DNA of 36,673 bases, taken from the IMG/VR virus record IMGVR_UViG_3300009152_000102, positions 1 to 36,673 of that record; one strand, 5' to 3'. The notes beneath the pieces are model-generated. The model saw nothing but the letters and a program-made list of their open reading frames with translations, made no database searches and was not told the DNA's origin. Source of the DNA: a virus. Positions 21,615 through 27,846 of the stretch are shown here, one piece after another. The position numbers and the translations under genes were made by a program. The number at the start of each line of letters is the position of its first letter. The stretch's first letter is position 1.

Positions 21615-23347
21615 CGAGAGAAGGGCTGGTCCCGGTTACGAGACAACCCAGGATTTTGTTTTGGCAGAGTGTCAACAGAAGTGTCCATCTGTTCGGCTGG
21701 TTCTGCTGCCGGCGTGCGAGGTGGAGGACGGAGCTCGGGTTCCGTGTTCGTCAGAGCGTCTGTCGGAACATTTGGGTCGGCGCCTGCGCCCGCTATCTGG
21801 TCAATAGGCACAATTGTCGGCTGCCCATCTGGCCCTGGCATCACCACGCCAAGCGCACCTTCAGGAATGGTCGGAGGACCGCCCGGAGCGCCTGCTCCAC
21901 CCGCACCACCCGCAGGAGACTTACGCCACAGCTTGTCTTCTGCCACGCCCGTCTCTTTCGATAGGCGACCAATAAACGAGTGGTCACGCGCAATCTTACG
22001 CATCGTCTTTTCAAAGTTGTAGCCACGAGACTGGAAGTCGTCGGAGGGCGGGATGCGACCCATGTCGAGGTCAGCTCGCTCGTTCGCACCCTCTCTGCCG
22101 GCATCGACAGTCACCGACTTGCAGCACACCCACTCGGTCTTCCACCAATTGCGAGCATTAGGTATCTCCTTGCGGTCAATCTTCAGACCACACCAGAATT
22201 GGAAGTATTCCTGGAGGAAGCGGTTGATAATAATCGTCTGGCGGTGCGTGAAAAATCTGCCCGCCTTCGCCACTACCAATCGAACTGCACTTCCGCCGGC
22301 ACGAGTCGGGTCGGCCACGAACTCATAGGGTAGTCCTCCCAACACAGAGTCACGACGAAGGTGTTCGATAAATCCGGCAAAAGCTGCCGACGGTCTGGCC
22401 GACGCATAAGAGACGAGCGACTCGTTGTTCTGTAAAACGGCGGTCACACCACCAAGCACTCGGTTGAGCGCGTCAGGCGAGGTGTTCTGGGTGGCTGAAT
22501 TGCCCTCTCCAAGGGGTTGCCCAAGACCAAGGTCACCAGAGTCCATCCGTGTGTCCTCGACCTTTAGGATGCGACTCGTGCGGGAGTTGTCCTTGACTGC
22601 GACCTTCTCCATCGAGAGCAAGTCCATCTCGTCACGCATGTGATTGATGGCATGCTGATGAGGCGGGAAAGCTCGGCTCTGCGAGGCGTATTCCGCATCA
22701 AAGATGTGCATCATCGACTCGGCCTTGACCGGCGTGTAGCGACCATCGCTCTGCTTCACAAAGTAGGTCAGCGGTCTGCCCAGCCTGTCAAAACGGATGC
22801 CGTCAAAGACGTCTGGCTGCGCCATCGCATCGGGAGCTGTCTCGACCCGGTGGGCTTCGATGATTTGAAACTTCGGGTTACCCTTTCGGTCCTTGCACTT
22901 GATTATAAAGATTTCGCCGTCTCGGTCCAGGGCCTCACACACAATGAATAGGCTCTCCAGCATCGAAAAGCGCCCAGACACTTCGGGCCTGATGCACTCC
23001 TGCTCCCATTCAGCTTCCACAGTGTTCTGCCATTCGTAGTCCCCACCCAAGCACTGAAGCCCGATGCCCTCGCCCACCGTGTAGATGGCCGTGTCCTTAA
23101 TCATCTGTTTGTATAGGCCGTTATTCTTTTCCAACCAGCGGGACAGGCGTAGCATCTCACGACGAGTCGAGCCCGTCATCTCCATCCGGAAGTCCGTCGG
23201 CTGCGGCGCGTCAATGCGCGTGCGGTGAACGGAGTAGCGTGTGGACTCGAACGCTCCCTGATAAGCTTTCGGCTTCAGGAGGTTGGACAGACCGATACGG
23301 AGCCGGTCAACAAGACCTGGCGTAGGCTTTTTTGGTTCGAGGGGCAT
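21611..23347 (-). CDS. Portal protein, lambda gpB type
   Basis: This 578-residue protein has the features of the lambda-type portal family: RREMLRLSRWLEKNNGLYK near residues 65-85, EALDRDGEIFIIK near 165, and FQIIEAHRVETAPDAM shortly after. The C-terminal 90 residues are Gly/Pro-rich and disordered. It forms the dodecameric ring at one capsid vertex through which DNA is packaged. The neighbours agree: gpW-like gene upstream and S49 protease downstream, with TAATG and ATGA overlaps respectively. A TTGACA within its 3' end (21666-21671) encodes VD and is taken as coincidence. Confidence 0.92.
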   Translation of the reverse strand: MPLEPKKPTPGLVDRLRIGLSNLLKPKAYQGAFESTRYSVHRTRIDAPQPTDFRMEMTGSTRREMLRLSRWLEKNNGLYKQMIKDTAIYTVGEGIGLQCLGGDYEWQNTVEAEWEQECIRPEVSGRFSMLESLFIVCEALDRDGEIFIIKCKDRKGNPKFQIIEAHRVETAPDAMAQPDVFDGIRFDRLGRPLTYFVKQSDGRYTPVKAESMMHIFDAEYASQSRAFPPHQHAINHMRDEMDLLSMEKVAVKDNSRTSRILKVEDTRMDSGDLGLGQPLGEGNSATQNTSPDALNRVLGGVTAVLQNNESLVSYASARPSAAFAGFIEHLRRDSVLGGLPYEFVADPTRAGGSAVRLVVAKAGRFFTHRQTIIINRFLQEYFQFWCGLKIDRKEIPNARNWWKTEWVCCKSVTVDAGREGANERADLDMGRIPPSDDFQSRGYNFEKTMRKIARDHSFIGRLSKETGVAEDKLWRKSPAGGAGGAGAPGGPPTIPEGALGVVMPGPDGQPTIVPIDQIAGAGADPNVPTDALTNTEPELRPPPRTPAAEPAEQMDTSVDTLPKQNPGLSRNRDQPFSR

Positions 23348-23592
23348 TAACGGTCAACAAGTCGGTTGTAGTTCGTGTAGAGGCCACGGACCCTCCCGTC
23401 AAGACGCAGTAACGCATAGTTTGCTTCTTGGAGCATCTGCTGCGGAGGCAGGGCGAAGCTCTTGCTGGCGTTGGTCGAGCCATCGCCGTAAGACATGATT
23501 GTCTTGCCTTCTAGGATAAGCGCCACGGCTTTATCCCGGATGGCTTCAATGGTTTCCTTGGGCAGGCCGACAAATAGTCCGTTGGCTGGCAT
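23347..23592 (-). CDS. gpW-like head-tail joining protein
   Basis: An 81-residue protein in exactly the place of lambda W, before the portal gene. The order is an N-terminal helix (ETIEAIRDKAVALILEGK), then a short strand region with ASKSFALPPQ, then a helix (MLQEANYALLRLDGRV). This agrees with the gpW alpha-beta-alpha layout, although sequence identity is low. The protein seals the portal after packaging. The start at 23592 follows a perfect start-associated motif, and the leader also forms a CGTGC-CAAAA-GCACG hairpin ending right at the ATG. No Shine-Dalgarno sequence is present. Confidence 0.7.
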   Translation of the reverse strand: MPANGLFVGLPKETIEAIRDKAVALILEGKTIMSYGDGSTNASKSFALPPQQMLQEANYALLRLDGRVRGLYTNYNRLVDR

Positions 23593-23614
23593 CGTGCTTT
23601 TGGCACGCTGTCAA
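23593..23614 (-). promoter_or_regulatory. Start-associated bipartite motif, perfect copy, with hairpin
   Basis: TTGACA, GCGTG, CCA, 8 nt, ATG (23592). The N16 segment folds into a 5-bp hairpin with loop CAAAA that abuts the start codon. Confidence 0.6.
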
Positions 23615-24089
23615 CGACATCGGGCGAACCAAAGTAAAGTCTAGCTCCAAGGCTTTTGTAGGCGGGAACCTTTCGGTCTATACCCCGACCACGCTGTCTG
23701 CCTTGGCGTCTTGGCTCGCTTGTTTCCAAAGAGGTTGCCCTCCGGTGTGGAACCACCGCCTCGCATCTCCCCAGGATTGGACCCCAGTAATTGCAGAAGC
23801 GACGTGTTAGTAGCGAGTCGCAGCAAACCCTGCTTTCGCAGGGCAAATTAAATGTTGGGGGTGGCTATCGAAGACCACCATTTCCTTGGGCGACCCCAAG
23901 GTTTGCGTTCGTTAGCCCTGCTACGAGCTGATTAGTTTATCAGCCGCCGAACGCCCAAAGGTTTTCAAAAGAACTAAAAGTGTTGTGGACTGCTGTTTGA
24001 GCTTTGTCAACATTTATTTACGCAAGCGCTTTACCCCTGCCAAATAGAGGCGGTATAAGTGGGGGTGGGGACCTGGGATGGTAGGTCAA

Positions 24090-24218
24090 GTCGCCGAGGA
24101 GGAGTCGAACCTCCGTCCACGAGTCTTTTCAGGAGACCTGGGTCTTGCGAACCAAGCCACCGCCAATCAAGGCGGCTTCCAGGGACAGCACCACGCTACG
24201 GCGTAAAGTATTCGGCAA
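24090..24218 (-). ncRNA. tRNA-like module 1 (enlarged D region)
   Basis: The acceptor TTGCCGA (24218-24212) pairs 7/7 with TCGGCGA (24097-24091), one pair being G-U. The T-arm is GGAGG-TTCGACT-CCTCC (24114-24098) with a canonical loop. A normal-size anticodon-type arm is present, GGTCT-CCTGAAA-AGACT (24138-24122), with TGA in the anticodon place but C instead of U at position 33. The D region is 73 nt instead of about 19 and contains two extra hairpins. There is no CCA at the 3' end. The total is 129 nt. It could be a decayed tRNA-Ser-like gene, but the intact stems argue against decay. Confidence 0.5.
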
Positions 24219-24394
24219 CCGACAGCACTCCCTTGTCTCCCCCGCGGCTTATTGCGGTTTCTATCCGGGAGCTCCGTGTCAGAGTTGTGGACCTTTCGGC
24301 TACCCACGCCTGTTGCCCGTCATTCCGACCGTCCCACGAAAGAGGTGGGCAATCTTCGGTGCAAGAACACTCCACCCCTTAGCGGGTGGCTCTG

Positions 24395-24482
24395 CCGTAT
24401 GATGCGGTCCGTTTCCGGGACCGGAGCTTGGTAGGGCTCCCTCGCCTTGACCCTGTTGATAGCAGGAGGCGACTACACACGG
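24395..24482 (-). ncRNA. Compact four-way junction module 2
   Basis: CCGTGTG (24482-24476) pairs 7/7 with CATACGG (24401-24395), one pair being G-U. It is followed by TA, as at positions 8-9 of a tRNA. Three arms follow: TCGCCT/AGGCGA, GGAGC/GCTCC with an 8-nt loop, and GGTCC-CGGAAAC-GGACC. The last arm lacks the T-loop consensus and is separated from the closing stem by 4 nt, so the module is only tRNA-shaped. The total is 88 nt. Confidence 0.4.
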
Positions 24483-24502
24483 TATTGCGCTGACGTTGAA
24501 AT

Positions 24503-24728
24503 TGGTGGGCATGGTGGGAATTGAACCCACAATCTTTCTGGCACCTCCCCGCTAAGGGAGTCGGCTTGTATGGGGAGCAACCCCCACCGCACCTCGCCAG
24601 ACTTCTGCATTTCCGTGTTCTGACATCCTCTTACGCTCTACATGAAGGGCGCGACCCTGCATGGATTGAAGGACTTGTCTTGCGACCGTCAGCCGCCCAA
24701 GTGATTAACAGGCGGATGCTACATCCCC
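24503..24728 (-). ncRNA. tRNA-like module 3 with giant D and anticodon loops, CCA end
   Basis: The acceptor GGGGATG (24728-24722) pairs 6/7 with CATGCCC (24513-24507), followed by discriminator A and encoded CCA (24505-24503). TA occupies positions 8-9. The D-stem GCAT/ATGC (24719-24716 with 24610-24607) encloses about 105 nt. The anticodon stem TCTGGC/GCCAGA (24601-24596 with 24542-24537) encloses 53 nt carrying two hairpins. The variable loop is 6 nt, and the T-arm is GTGGG-TTCAATT-CCCAC. All four tRNA stems are in the right order, but the total is 226 nt. This is the clearest module of the array. Confidence 0.6.
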
Positions 24729-24737
24729 ATAAAGTAG

Positions 24738-24887
24738 TGGTTGGTGATGGGATTTGCACCCACAGTCGTCGGGTATTTTAACCTTGGTGACAAAGCCAAG
24801 GCCAACCCCGATTTTGCGTTACTGGATTTAGTCGGAAGTCACTCCGACCCTCGTAGGTTATCACCCCCACAAGACGCTACACCCGCC
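24738..24887 (-). ncRNA. tRNA-like module 4 with enlarged D and anticodon loops
   Basis: The acceptor GGCGGGTG (24887-24880) pairs 6/8 with CACCAACC (24746-24739). TA follows at positions 8-9. The D-stem GCGT/ACGC (24877-24874 with 24819-24816) encloses 54 nt with the hairpin GTCGGA/TCCGAC. The anticodon stem TCGGG/CCCGA (24811-24807 with 24773-24769) encloses 33 nt with the hairpin CCTTGG/CCAAGG. The variable loop is 5 nt, and the T-arm is GTGGG-TGCAAAT-CCCAT. There is no CCA. The total is about 150 nt. Confidence 0.55.
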
Positions 24888-25005
24888 ATAAAAGGTTGGA
24901 GCTGGTTCGTTTCGGTATCTCAACCTCTCCCCCGGTGGCCATTATCGCCAAGCAGAGGAAGCATCACGCCTTGACCCGGCGTCGCTACGAACTTTGCCCC
25001 AAAAG

Positions 25006-25154
25006 TGGTGGTTGTTGTGGGGGTCGAACCCACTTGTGCTGCCCTTCCGATGCACCAGAAGTTTGCCTTGCTAGGTAATTATTCTAACGCGGCTGACAGA
25101 TTACGCTACATTGAACCTTTCCGTCGGACTCCCTTTCGGGATTAGCGAACAACC
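25006..25154 (-). ncRNA. tRNA-like module 5, perfect acceptor and CCA end
   Basis: The acceptor GGTTGTT (25154-25148) pairs 7/7 with AACAACC (25016-25010), followed by discriminator A and encoded CCA (25008-25006). The T-arm is GTGGG-TTCGACC-CCCAC (25033-25017). A D-stem CTAA/TTAG (25145-25142 with 25087-25084) would enclose 54 nt, the same as module 4, including a CCC-GAAA-GGG hairpin. The anticodon side holds the hairpin CTTCTG/CGGAAG (25061-25044), but no clear enclosing stem. The total is 149 nt. Confidence 0.55.
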
Positions 25155-25165
25155 ATAAAGTTAAT

Positions 25166-25264
25166 GAAGGTGAAGCGGGAGTCTTAGCTACCCCACTGCC
25201 AAGAGCCGCGTCAACCAATGCCTTGGCGGTCTACGGCTCAATCGCTTTTTTAATTTTCACCTTC
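25166..25264 (-). ncRNA. tRNA-like module 6, 9-bp closing stem
   Basis: GAAGGTGAA (25264-25256) pairs 9/9 with TTCACCTTC (25174-25166). A 16-nt D region without a stem follows, then GAGCCG/CGGCTC enclosing 25 nt with a small CCAA/TTGG hairpin, a 6-nt variable segment, and a 5-bp T-type stem GTGGG/CCCGC with a 12-nt loop adjoining the closing stem. The order matches a tRNA but the T-loop is not canonical. The total is 99 nt. Confidence 0.45.
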
Positions 25265-25472
25265 AAAGAGGCACGTGGGACATCCTTTCAGATGCCGGTT
25301 TGTTTGTCATAGCCGCATTTAAACATCGAGTATCCTCGACTTTGGTTCGCAGTTAAATCCCTTGCGAGATACAGTCCCCGTCAGTCGCCTCACGCCCTTG
25401 CAAGAGCAGTAAGACTTTTTTTGGAGGTCAGCGGAACCAATGCACTACACCCAAACAGCGCACGTATAAAGT

Positions 25473-25576
25473 AAAGAGGTGACGGATTTAAACCGCCTGA
25501 GTCCTTTCCCGCCGGGTAATTACTCCCTTTGGTCAGACACCTCAAAGTTAGACCGTGTAGCAAATCCACGCCTCTT
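25473..25576 (-). ncRNA. tRNA-like module 7
   Basis: AAGAGG (25576-25571) pairs with CCTCTT (25479-25474). The T-arm is GGCGG-TTTAAAT-CCGTC (25497-25481) with a T-loop-like sequence. A small arm CGTG/CACG with a 9-nt loop sits at the D position. The middle holds CTTTG/CAAAG and CCC-GGC-GGG hairpins rather than a clear anticodon arm. There is no CCA. The total is 104 nt. Confidence 0.35.
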
Positions 25577-25845
25577 TCTGGACGCTTATTCGGATGCTTG
25601 CGGGGCTTCTCAACCCCTCACGGTATTTAAAGTTAGTGGCGGTTCGTTCGTCAAGAGGCACTGTGCGTGCTTTTCGATAAAGGGGTTTATTCCAACCCCA
25701 CCCGCCAGATTTCTATCAGATGACCAAGGCTTTCAAAGATGTTCTCCTTCGACCTGCGATTTGGCTTTTCGCTCACCTGACTTCACGCCAGGTGGTTCAC
25801 TGCCCCCCGTCAATGCGGTTTCGGGACTTATGGTAGCTTTTTCTC

Positions 25846-25907
25846 GCTGGGCCTCAAAGAACAGTCAGCTATTACCCTGACTCGAACAGTCAATCAGATG
25901 CCCAAGC
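25846..25907 (-). ncRNA. Long hairpin module at the 5' end of the RNA region
   Basis: GCTTGGGC (25907-25900) pairs with GCCCAGC (25852-25846) with one bulged T. The enclosed 47 nt can form TTGAC-TGTTCGA-GTCAG or GTCAG/CTGAC, two mutually exclusive stems. It lies 97 nt after the terminase stop. Confidence 0.35.
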
Positions 25908-26004
25908 GTTTGACAAGATAAATCTGCAAATAATTAAAAATAATTCCAGGCCCCCCTTTTCATTGAGGTTTCTGGGGTATTCCGAACTACTGTGCGTCCA
26001 AGAC

Positions 26005-27846
26005 CTATGAGGCAGGAGGGGCCTCGGACGGCTGCTCCACAGGTTTTTCTTCGGGCGGGGGAGGCGGTGGCGGGGCCAGGAACCCAAACGCCAAGGCGGG
26101 CACGAACTGCATCACCTCGCAGTCCCACAAGTGATTAGCTCGCTTACCAATTCGCTTCCACTCCGGTTTGCCGGCCAGGTTCTTCGTGCGAACTTCCGAC
26201 TCCATCTGGTCCAGGTAATCCTGCAAGCAATCTACGGAGGTGCTGTGCTTGCCAACCTTACGCATGCGCGAGAGCTGGTCCTTGAGTGCTAGGTTCGAGA
26301 AGTGATGCACACGCACCGGCCCTGTCCCCACATTCACCATACGAGCTGGAGCGTAGACCTTGCCCACCGGCTTACGACCCTTCGGTGTCTCCACCATCCA
26401 AGTAAACTCGTAGCGGGCATCCCCTCGTAGGGCCGTCCACTTGTTGATACCACACTGACGGATGACGTCGTCGAACTGGTCACCACAGTCAACATATGTC
26501 AGGGCGGGGTGAACCTCCAACGCCTTGCCCATCGCTATCACATCTTCCCATGTCTGCACATAGCGCCACTTCACAAGTCGGCTGTCACCACCTTCGGCCC
26601 AGCCCCTAACAAGACAAAAGAACCCCTCGCGCTGAACGTCCACAGACATGAAGCGAGCTCGTATCTGCTTCTCTCGCTTATGGTCGGTGTGTATCTTGCG
26701 TGTGCCTGGGTCGATGCGGGCTTCCTTCTCCCACTCGTCTCCCTGCTTGTAGTCTCCGATAGTCTGAAGCGAACCAAAGTCATCCGGTGCGTCCGACCAA
26801 AAATGGGCGAGCTGCTTCTGCTTGAAAATCTGCATCGCCTTTGAGTCGCCGTTCACATCGAGCACGAGCTTCGCACGCACGAACATTTCTGCCATAGCAC
26901 CCCACGAGCGTGCAGCCAATCCCGACCAAGTGTAACCTTGGTTCGCCGGGTCCGCCGTCGGGTTCGTAGGATTATAAAACCCTGTCGCATTAAAGTCGTC
27001 TCGGTTCGAGCGCGTATCCGCAAACTGCTTCTTGCACCCCTCGCACTCATACTTGGTTTCCCGCTTGATGAGTCCGTAGTCATACTCGCCGTCTCGCTGC
27101 ATGGCGTCGGGTATCTTCACTTGGTCCCAGGAGTATGGCTGGCGATGTCCGCAGGCGGGGCAGGCAAAGGACCAGACACGCCTATCAGTCGTTAGCCACA
27201 CCGCCTCGGTGTCGTCCCCTTGAAACGAACCCTGCGACATAAAGATACGCTTACCCAACCAACCAAAGCTCGTGACACGCGCCGACGCTTCAGCCAGATG
27301 CCCTTGGGGCCAGAGCCAAGTCTCGTCACCCACGAGCCATCTGATAGACCGCCGTTGTAGGTTCTTCTCATTGAACGCCCCCAAGCACCAAAAGGTCATG
27401 TCCTCCGTTTGGACCGTTCCCGACTTCTTCCCTGTCTCGTCCTTCGACAACTTCGCCAAGACCGGCGGGACATTCTCCCAAAGCACCCGCAAGCGGGACT
27501 GCATCCAGTCAGCCGCGTTGCTATCCTGGTCGTTCAGATAGAGCGTAGGAGCCGGTTGTCTGGCTATGATGAAGCAGGACAGCATCTCGGCCATCAAAGA
27601 CTTCCCAGACTGAATGGGCGCTATCGTAACCACTAGCCTGACTTCGGGGTCGGCACACGCTCGGAGCGGCTCCGCTAACCAAGGCGTCTCTGCCACCCGA
27701 AACCCTGAAGGCATCGGCGAGAAAGGTATCTGCCTGATGTTCTCCTCCAACCAAGTAACAATGTCCCCACCCTCGTCCGGGCGGAACACCTTCCGGATAC
27801 GAGCTTCAAGCTGGTCGGCAATTGCTTCCTTTTGGGCAGGGGTCAT
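26005..27846 (-). CDS. Terminase large subunit, GpA family
   Basis: A 613-residue protein. The N-terminal ATPase has Walker A at residues 76-83 (APIQSGKS) and Walker B with catalytic Glu at 168-175 (IRWLVGDE). A zinc-finger-like insert with C229, C232, C268 and C271 (CPACGH and CEGCKK) is typical of GpA proteins. The C-terminal nuclease shows D403 (SVDVQ), D453 (YVDCGDQ) and D575 (HLWDCEV). The protein cuts concatemers and drives DNA into the prohead. A run of seven prolines lies near the C-terminus. The ATG at 27846 overlaps the small-subunit stop as ATGA. A cos-type mechanism is suggested by the GpA family but no cos site was identified. Confidence 0.95.
   Translation of the reverse strand: MTPAQKEAIADQLEARIRKVFRPDEGGDIVTWLEENIRQIPFSPMPSGFRVAETPWLAEPLRACADPEVRLVVTIAPIQSGKSLMAEMLSCFIIARQPAPTLYLNDQDSNAADWMQSRLRVLWENVPPVLAKLSKDETGKKSGTVQTEDMTFWCLGAFNEKNLQRRSIRWLVGDETWLWPQGHLAEASARVTSFGWLGKRIFMSQGSFQGDDTEAVWLTTDRRVWSFACPACGHRQPYSWDQVKIPDAMQRDGEYDYGLIKRETKYECEGCKKQFADTRSNRDDFNATGFYNPTNPTADPANQGYTWSGLAARSWGAMAEMFVRAKLVLDVNGDSKAMQIFKQKQLAHFWSDAPDDFGSLQTIGDYKQGDEWEKEARIDPGTRKIHTDHKREKQIRARFMSVDVQREGFFCLVRGWAEGGDSRLVKWRYVQTWEDVIAMGKALEVHPALTYVDCGDQFDDVIRQCGINKWTALRGDARYEFTWMVETPKGRKPVGKVYAPARMVNVGTGPVRVHHFSNLALKDQLSRMRKVGKHSTSVDCLQDYLDQMESEVRTKNLAGKPEWKRIGKRANHLWDCEVMQFVPALAFGFLAPPPPPPPEEKPVEQPSEAPPAS

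Follow-up and report, generated by a model that had tools for sequence, protein, structure and literature searches.

Phage tRNA genes are usually explained as supplements to decoding or as substitutes for tRNAs destroyed by defense systems. Transfer-messenger RNA (tmRNA, RF00023) combines tRNA-like ends with a large domain in place of the anticodon arm, and GOLLD and ROOL, each one very large molecule, are phage-associated structured RNAs near tRNAs with unknown function. Bacterial Y RNAs (YrlA, RF02553) are small non-coding RNAs with a tRNA-like domain; as Chen et al. are said to have described in 2014, they are acted on by tRNA enzymes and also come from phages. Here we describe an array of structured RNAs in the virus record IMGVR_UViG_3300009152_000102 (IMG/VR), whose whole length of 36,673 nucleotides (nt) is called the window. 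The array region covers about 2.4 kb (23593..26007, minus strand), wider than the span of the initial annotation, and lies between the terminase large subunit gene (26005-27846) and a small pre-portal open reading frame (ORF, 23347-23592). Tentatively, we read this locus as a hypervariable set of structured non-coding RNAs that includes several descended from tRNAs or converged on them. A boxA- and RNase E-dependent precursor would be processed into non-decoding mimics, perhaps serving as bait.

Relatives of the locus were collected through the terminase (eighteen loci) and, beyond these, through portal and terminase alignments; the virus records used may be fragments. The initial annotation had considered that the whole region might match a known Rfam family or might be coding. 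Nothing in the gap (23593-26007) reached the gathering score of any Rfam family, its ORFs have no match to a protein family (PHROG), and no coding evidence was found there. No family but tRNA fits the window or its relatives.

With tRNAs (RF00005) and phage tRNA clusters the modules share a 7-bp acceptor, an adjacent T-arm with canonical loop, a D-stem, a D-loop/T-loop contact and, in some, a CCA end, and the array has the layout and the boxA-like element of the ordinary tRNA cluster of a close relative (G001). In contrast to tRNAs, there are modules without a standard anticodon loop and with D-loops of 54 nt or longer, and the window modules stay below the Rfam tRNA threshold. The window modules F2 (24886-24736) and F4 (24728-24503) hold at least 33 nt in the anticodon loop and have no 5-bp stem closing a 7-nt loop with a usable anticodon. 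The RF00005 gathering score was reached by some relatives (L221, L227, L230, L003 and L014) and by no window module. Compared with tmRNA, the modules have similar ends and a similarly placed large domain, but they enlarge the D-loop too. ARAGORN found no tmRNA in the window or relatives, and RF00023 gave 15.2 bits in the window and at best 18.3 bits (L004) against a gathering score of 47, with Rfam seeing the T-arm only or weak ends. GOLLD, ROOL and other large-RNA families of Rfam, from which these small modular RNAs differ in size, had no match in the window or relatives, nor did the group I/II intron families of Rfam. Y RNAs are nearest in kind, but here many diverse mimics with large D-loop and anticodon inserts stand in one array. 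The RF02553 cut-off was reached in none of 12 records (best 28.8 bits versus 69), and a weak signal of this model was also obtained in 13 of 14 control genomes.

Because each of the known families has at least one tested feature that failed, the RNAs, judged from their sequence, are not a decoding tRNA, tmRNA, YrlA, GOLLD/ROOL or intron and appear to act as tRNA mimics. The open-licence part of the literature, which was searched, yielded no description of such RNAs.

Statistical support and covariation of the tRNA-like fold

The window array carries four T-arms on the minus strand, alongside non-tRNA-like structured modules; for three of the T-arms an acceptor with at least 6/7 Watson-Crick pairs was found upstream. 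Dinucleotide shuffles of the array contained 0.08 T-arms on average (maximum 2), and T-arm plus acceptor pairs (mean 0.017, maximum 1) occurred at about 1/175 of the observed number of 3. When the T-arm was defined strictly (5-bp stem, GTTCRANYC), 38 were found on the array strand of the gap regions versus 2 on the opposite strand and 0.0 in shuffles; the rest of the window outside the array has none. Among 27 distinct RNAs, with the 5' acceptor strand chosen by sequence landmarks and not by pairing, 177 of 189 acceptor positions are paired (permuted mean 105, maximum 131, observed value reached in 0 of 20000 permutations). This permutation ignores relatedness; the acceptors nonetheless vary at every position. 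Chance resemblance or decay of tRNA pseudogenes might be suspected since Rfam and ARAGORN hardly recognize the window modules. Such an origin is contradicted by all covariation results and ruled out by the shuffles and permutation tests, and we give it practically no weight. We conclude that the RNAs are real and under selection, as far as sequence comparison can tell.

The array of the window was resolved into the following elements.

25854..25862 (-), boxA-like element GTTCTTTGA at the array head
25739..25859 (-), non-tRNA-like structured module with core CTACCRTAAGTCC..GGCAGTGAACCAC..GTGAGCGAAAAGCC, conserved with a changing outer stem in L001, L003, L005, L010 and L016
25548..25632 (-), module with terminal stem ACCGTG/CACGGT; homologues in L003, L012 and L075 (segment clustering, cluster 6)
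25474..25549 (-), short module with terminal stem GAGGTG/CACCTC and an adjoining variant T-arm (loop TTTAAAT); weak, from reading alone, no homologue found
25301..25459 (-), module with a domain type common to the F6 family, CCGCTGAC..ACTGTA-hairpin-TTTAACTG; block 83-92% identical in L004, L006/L007, L009, L010 and L012/L013
25006..25154 (-), tRNA-like F3 with acceptor GGTTGTT/AACAACC (7/7), T-arm, encoded ACCA and enlarged D-side; 98% identical block in L004
24736..24886 (-), tRNA-like F2 (family A); homologues in L006, L009, L016, L076 and others
24503..24728 (-), tRNA-like F4 (family A) with long structured D-loop insert, large anticodon arm, T-arm and encoded ACCA; homologues in L001, L003, L005 and L016
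24204..24373 (-), non-tRNA-like structured module with end GGTTGCCGAATACTTTA; block conserved in L001, L003, L004, L006 and L009, the next module differing between phages
24090..24203 (-), tRNA-like F1 with long variable-type arm and T-arm at 24114-24098; homologues in L001, L003, L004, L006, L009, L019 and L076
23964..23974 (-), another boxA-like element GTTCTTTTGAA, ahead of the final modules, which are not tRNA-like

Most tRNA-like modules of the initial annotation were recovered. The one placed at 24887-24738 was found at 24886-24736 (F2), with the 54-nt D-loop and 33-nt anticodon loop that had been claimed. Its acceptor GCGGGTG/CACCAAC is paired at 5/7 positions, the D-stem GCGT/ACGC encloses exactly 54 nt with two hairpins inside the D-loop, and the branched anticodon arm has an anticodon-type stem TCGGG/CCCGA enclosing 33 nt; the T-arm is GTGGG-TGCAAAT-CCCAT and the module ends in CACCAACCA. 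The module at 24728-24503 (F4) has the acceptor GGGGATG/CATGCCC (6/7 paired), for which its homologues carry differing pairs, a D-stem GCAT/ATGC and the T-arm. Likewise, the fully paired acceptor and the T-arm are present at 25154-25006 (F3), and in both F4 and F3 the T-arm is followed by ACCA, in agreement with the discriminator A plus CCA ends described for two modules. The T-arm of the module placed at 24218-24090 (F1) was confirmed. Its 5' acceptor strand TTGCCGA at 24218, however, was misplaced: it was assigned to the end of the preceding module because the same TTGCCGAATACTTTA in L003 precedes another module. The start of F1 was set near 24203 because the homologues favor CGCCGT/ACGGCG (L001 and L006; AGCCGT/ACGGCT in L009), a pairing that is weaker in the window (5/7). 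The single ARAGORN call in the array, a tRNA-Ser(TGA) at 24166-24090 inside F1, is doubtful, as its 5' strand differs from the one favored by the homologues. A separately claimed fifth module was not reproduced.

Covariation in homologues, which the initial annotation had proposed as a check, is present and reaches beyond the acceptor. In family A, to which two window modules belong, the D-stem is GCGT/ACGC (GCAT/ATGC in one member) and encloses further hairpins, two of which covary in the shorter members. Among non-redundant members a T-loop with TGC occurs only with AG in the D-loop (5/5), and TTC only with GG (6/6). D-loop position 18 and T-loop position 55 are therefore concordant in 11 of 11 cases, F2 being A18-G55. 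In tRNA, these two residues are in contact at the elbow. The concordant change is thus evidence for a tertiary tRNA fold, and suggests that the elbow forms in this D-loop-insert family despite a 54-nt D-loop.

Module exchange, spacers and a putative processing route

The head genes of the 36.7-kb record form a lambda-type module on its minus strand, with small and large terminase subunits, the small ORF, portal and S49 protease. Outside viral contigs the nearest relatives of the terminase are mostly in Verrucomicrobiota genomes, and a host of this phylum is likely. Nearly all relatives with a terminase identity of >65% have 1.2-6.2 kb between the terminase and the small ORF. In four more distant relatives (L050, L051, L052 and L055) this gap is 50-233 nt. 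Since gaps of more distant relatives are partly filled by ORFs, RNA arrays are discussed for the closer relatives only. In the gaps of the distant loci L042, L046, L056 and L037, a long ORF comes after one or two segments that resemble structured RNAs.

DNA matches between arrays are blocks of mostly about 120-330 nt, which recur in other combinations. In our interpretation the arrays are mosaics of exchangeable modules, which related phages shuffle, swap and re-pair like cassettes. Patterns for family A (the D-loop hairpins) and family F5 matched only contigs of this phage group, to which both families look confined. In the segment clustering, cluster 0 was over-merged, being joined through shared spacer and boxA-like sequence. 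The initial annotation had spoken of a new class of tRNA-mimicking RNA. This is well supported by a covarying fold including the D-loop/T-loop contact, which recurs in related phages and, with an additional 3' domain, in other phage types; as a whole, the locus is a mosaic in which only some modules are tRNA-like.

Other types of module were also seen. A non-tRNA block adjoining the small pre-portal ORF (23618-23842, minus strand) is strongly conserved, with 84-90% identity to its homologues (e.g. L003 and L001), and is followed in relatives by a module with CTGATGAAA..GGGGTCAT..CAGCGAACC. A 77-nt cloverleaf-like module (within the gap, L003 434-516, L001 355-437 and L010 548-629) has a 7-bp terminal stem (GTCGGCG/CGCCGAC, GTCGACG/CGTCGAC) and a TCCA end, without a canonical T-loop. 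Ordinary or class II tRNAs occur inside arrays as well, namely tRNA-Glu TTC and a Leu-like RNA with a long variable arm (L014 236 and L016 2757, within the gap).

The spacers are rich in CACTTT. By strand, CACTTTA was counted 23 times on the array strand versus 0 on the other, and TCACTTT 46 versus 7 times; the spacer motif fits the RNase E motif RN|WUU (PMC5222698). Across 39 gap regions, the boxA-like sequence TG[CT]TCTTT[AG]A has 17 occurrences on the array strand, one on the opposite strand and 0 in shuffles, and it does not occur elsewhere in the window. These elements stand at the array heads and recur within arrays. A terminal-stem test across all CTTT sites was barely above its shifted control, and therefore we do not claim every CTTT-bounded segment as a closed module. 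Based on the consensus matches, transcription may yield a single long precursor of the whole array, which would not be translated and which boxA (NusB/S10) antitermination would protect. RNase E or an enzyme like it would cut this precursor within the single-stranded ACUUU spacers, and RNase P would trim the 5' ends. Antitermination at boxA combined with RNase E-like cleavage and tRNA-type end processing is the best-supported candidate for the processing route.

Given such a precursor, the tRNA-like modules could be processing punctuation, the acceptor and T-arm halves attracting RNase P, RNase Z or RNase E and thereby freeing other structured RNAs, or the large inserts, from a polycistronic non-coding transcript, as with mitochondrial tRNAs. 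In line with this, tRNA-like modules alternate with non-tRNA structured ones, the spacers are RNase E-like, and conservation is highest in the T-arm and acceptor. However, D-loop inserts and anticodon arms are conserved with covariation and the D-loop/T-loop contact is kept, beyond what a cleavage signal needs, and several non-tRNA modules bear a terminal stem and spacer of their own. We consider this explanation unlikely.

A wider family with a conserved 3' domain

Members of family F6 consist of a tRNA-like part followed by a conserved 3' domain, GTAG..CG.AAG..YGAA.AACGAGGCG..CGCCTACAA. The pattern of this domain was found in 28 viral-contig stretches, less than half of them from this phage group and the rest from other phages. 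It has no copy in the window and was not found in 388 genomes from the Verrucomicrobium phylum; cultured phages and plasmids gave no convincing match, with tRNA fragments and a 30-nt match only. In the other phages the domain mostly stands 3' of a tRNA-like RNA that has a T-arm and in which the anticodon arm is enlarged (less clearly in L218 and L219). The Rfam tRNA model scored the solo relatives L221, L230 and L227 above threshold (52.3, 46.3 and 44.0 bits), their anticodon arms holding 76, 76 and 55 nt, respectively, and sigma70-like promoters precede several of the solo genes. Covariation is also seen in the outer stem of the 3' domain, where 63 of 70 positions were Watson-Crick in a direct complement test (shuffled mean 47.9, maximum 58); RNAalifold on a MAFFT alignment had missed it owing to length variation. 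Another pattern, GGTGCAAATCCNNNCACC, was rejected, because most of what it matched in viral contigs was ordinary tRNAs or tmRNA-type ends from other viruses and not relatives.

In L003 and L004 the 3' domain follows a normal-size, tRNA-Phe-like RNA at the F6 position (57.7 bits). This RNA (606-679 and 613-686 within the gap, respectively) has the ARAGORN anticodon AAA in a loop TGAAAAT, with G for the usual U33. Its uninterrupted form could suggest that the modules are functional tRNA genes with introns in the D-loop and anticodon loop, all the more as the insertions sit at tRNA loops and one relative, G001 (the record of L001), encodes the RNA ligase RtcB (L250). Yet the insert stems covary and extend tRNA stems rather than form spliceable loops, no group I/II intron family matched, and position 33, by reading, is not consistently U (C in L227, G in the tRNA-like RNA of L003). 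Moreover, G001 has 13 ordinary tRNA genes elsewhere (L254 600-2300; G001:C1:9000-12000), preceded by a boxA-like GCTCTTTGACATTCC. Its decoding tRNAs come from this separate cluster, so that the array is not needed for its decoding, and introns are an improbable explanation.

Anticodon-arm inserts of L216, L217, L218, L220 and L225 form hairpins with the self-complementary loop TGATCA (e.g. CAACcTGATCAgTTG), a possible kissing-loop dimerization site. Such a palindromic loop would suit structural RNAs that, like GOLLD and ROOL, multimerize or become packaged and that contribute to the virion or to packaging. Phage origin and tRNA neighborhood are as in GOLLD, and packaging genes adjoin even where relatives keep one short RNA-like segment (L050-L052). 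Against this, GOLLD, ROOL and other large-RNA families are unmatched, and the modules are small, turn over fast and are in several cases tRNA-like. We regard a structural role as less probable than punctuation.

Between these two in probability, and doubtful as well, is a function like that of bacterial Y RNAs, in which the mimics would tether or regulate a nuclease or a Ro60-type protein. Y RNAs have a tRNA-like domain (PMC7790460), RtcB of G001 is a neighbor of Salmonella Y RNAs, and one record of 27 (G015, with L219) has a TROVE/Ro60 gene near a 3'-domain RNA. In G015 the TROVE/Ro60-type protein (L244 562-2145) is encoded on the same strand about 2.5 kb from this RNA, amid seven phage tRNA genes. 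But TROVE is absent from the window and unmatched in the 25 other records, which may be incomplete, and the RF02553 result given above speaks against this function as well.

Proposed role as tRNA mimics

The explanation we place first, that of non-decoding tRNA mimics, starts from module exchange, orientation on one strand, covarying acceptor, T-arm and D-side stems and the kept D-loop/T-loop contact, together with large structured insertions on the D-side and in the anticodon arm and CCA or NCCA-like ends in several families. The mature RNAs would offer tRNA-handling proteins the elbow and acceptor end of a tRNA. They could serve as bait or competitors where host proteins target the elbow, variable arm or acceptor/CCA end of tRNA for attack or modification. 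We infer, with modest confidence, that this role is the most likely one, before punctuation, Y RNA-like and structural functions. It is ranked first because of the module turnover, the defenses that act on tRNA outside the anticodon and the precedent of YrlA. The tRNA-like domain of YrlA has been proposed as a competitive inhibitor of an anticodon nuclease (PMC7790460). Septu cuts the variable loop of tRNA, and phage T6 escapes through an amplified tRNA-Tyr gene (PMC13096335); the toxSAS FaRel2 recognizes the acceptor stem of tRNA and modifies its CCA end (PMC11559606). Bait against such proteins would explain the fast turnover of modules, which, occurring at a fixed site, is reminiscent of a locus in an arms race.

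Several observations weigh against this explanation. Two mismatches are conserved in the F2 acceptor, and a CCA end is missing from F1 and F6, so that not all modules are obvious CCA substrates. Many modules are not tRNA-like, and a decoy role would cover part of the array only. For the biogenesis, the boxA and RNase E motifs are consensus matches, in a host that is probably one of the Verrucomicrobiota.

In a broader and likewise tentative view, the locus may be a virus-borne RNA island of an undescribed class, in which tRNA genes were taken out of decoding and diversified by insertion into D-loop and anticodon arm to an exchangeable library. Its members would share a boxA-antiterminated, RNase E-diced biogenesis and a common RNA-based anti-host function, with one branch, the tRNA-like part plus 3' domain, spread across many phage types. 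A tRNA fold kept without a standard anticodon loop separates the body of tRNA from decoding, and structural insertions in the D-loop appear tolerable with the elbow retained. Several alignable RNA families are gained that are absent from Rfam 15. If the RNAs engage tRNA-handling proteins, they would be a natural set of tRNA mimics with which to test which proteins read the tRNA elbow and acceptor, and would represent a new RNA-based route of phage-host conflict.
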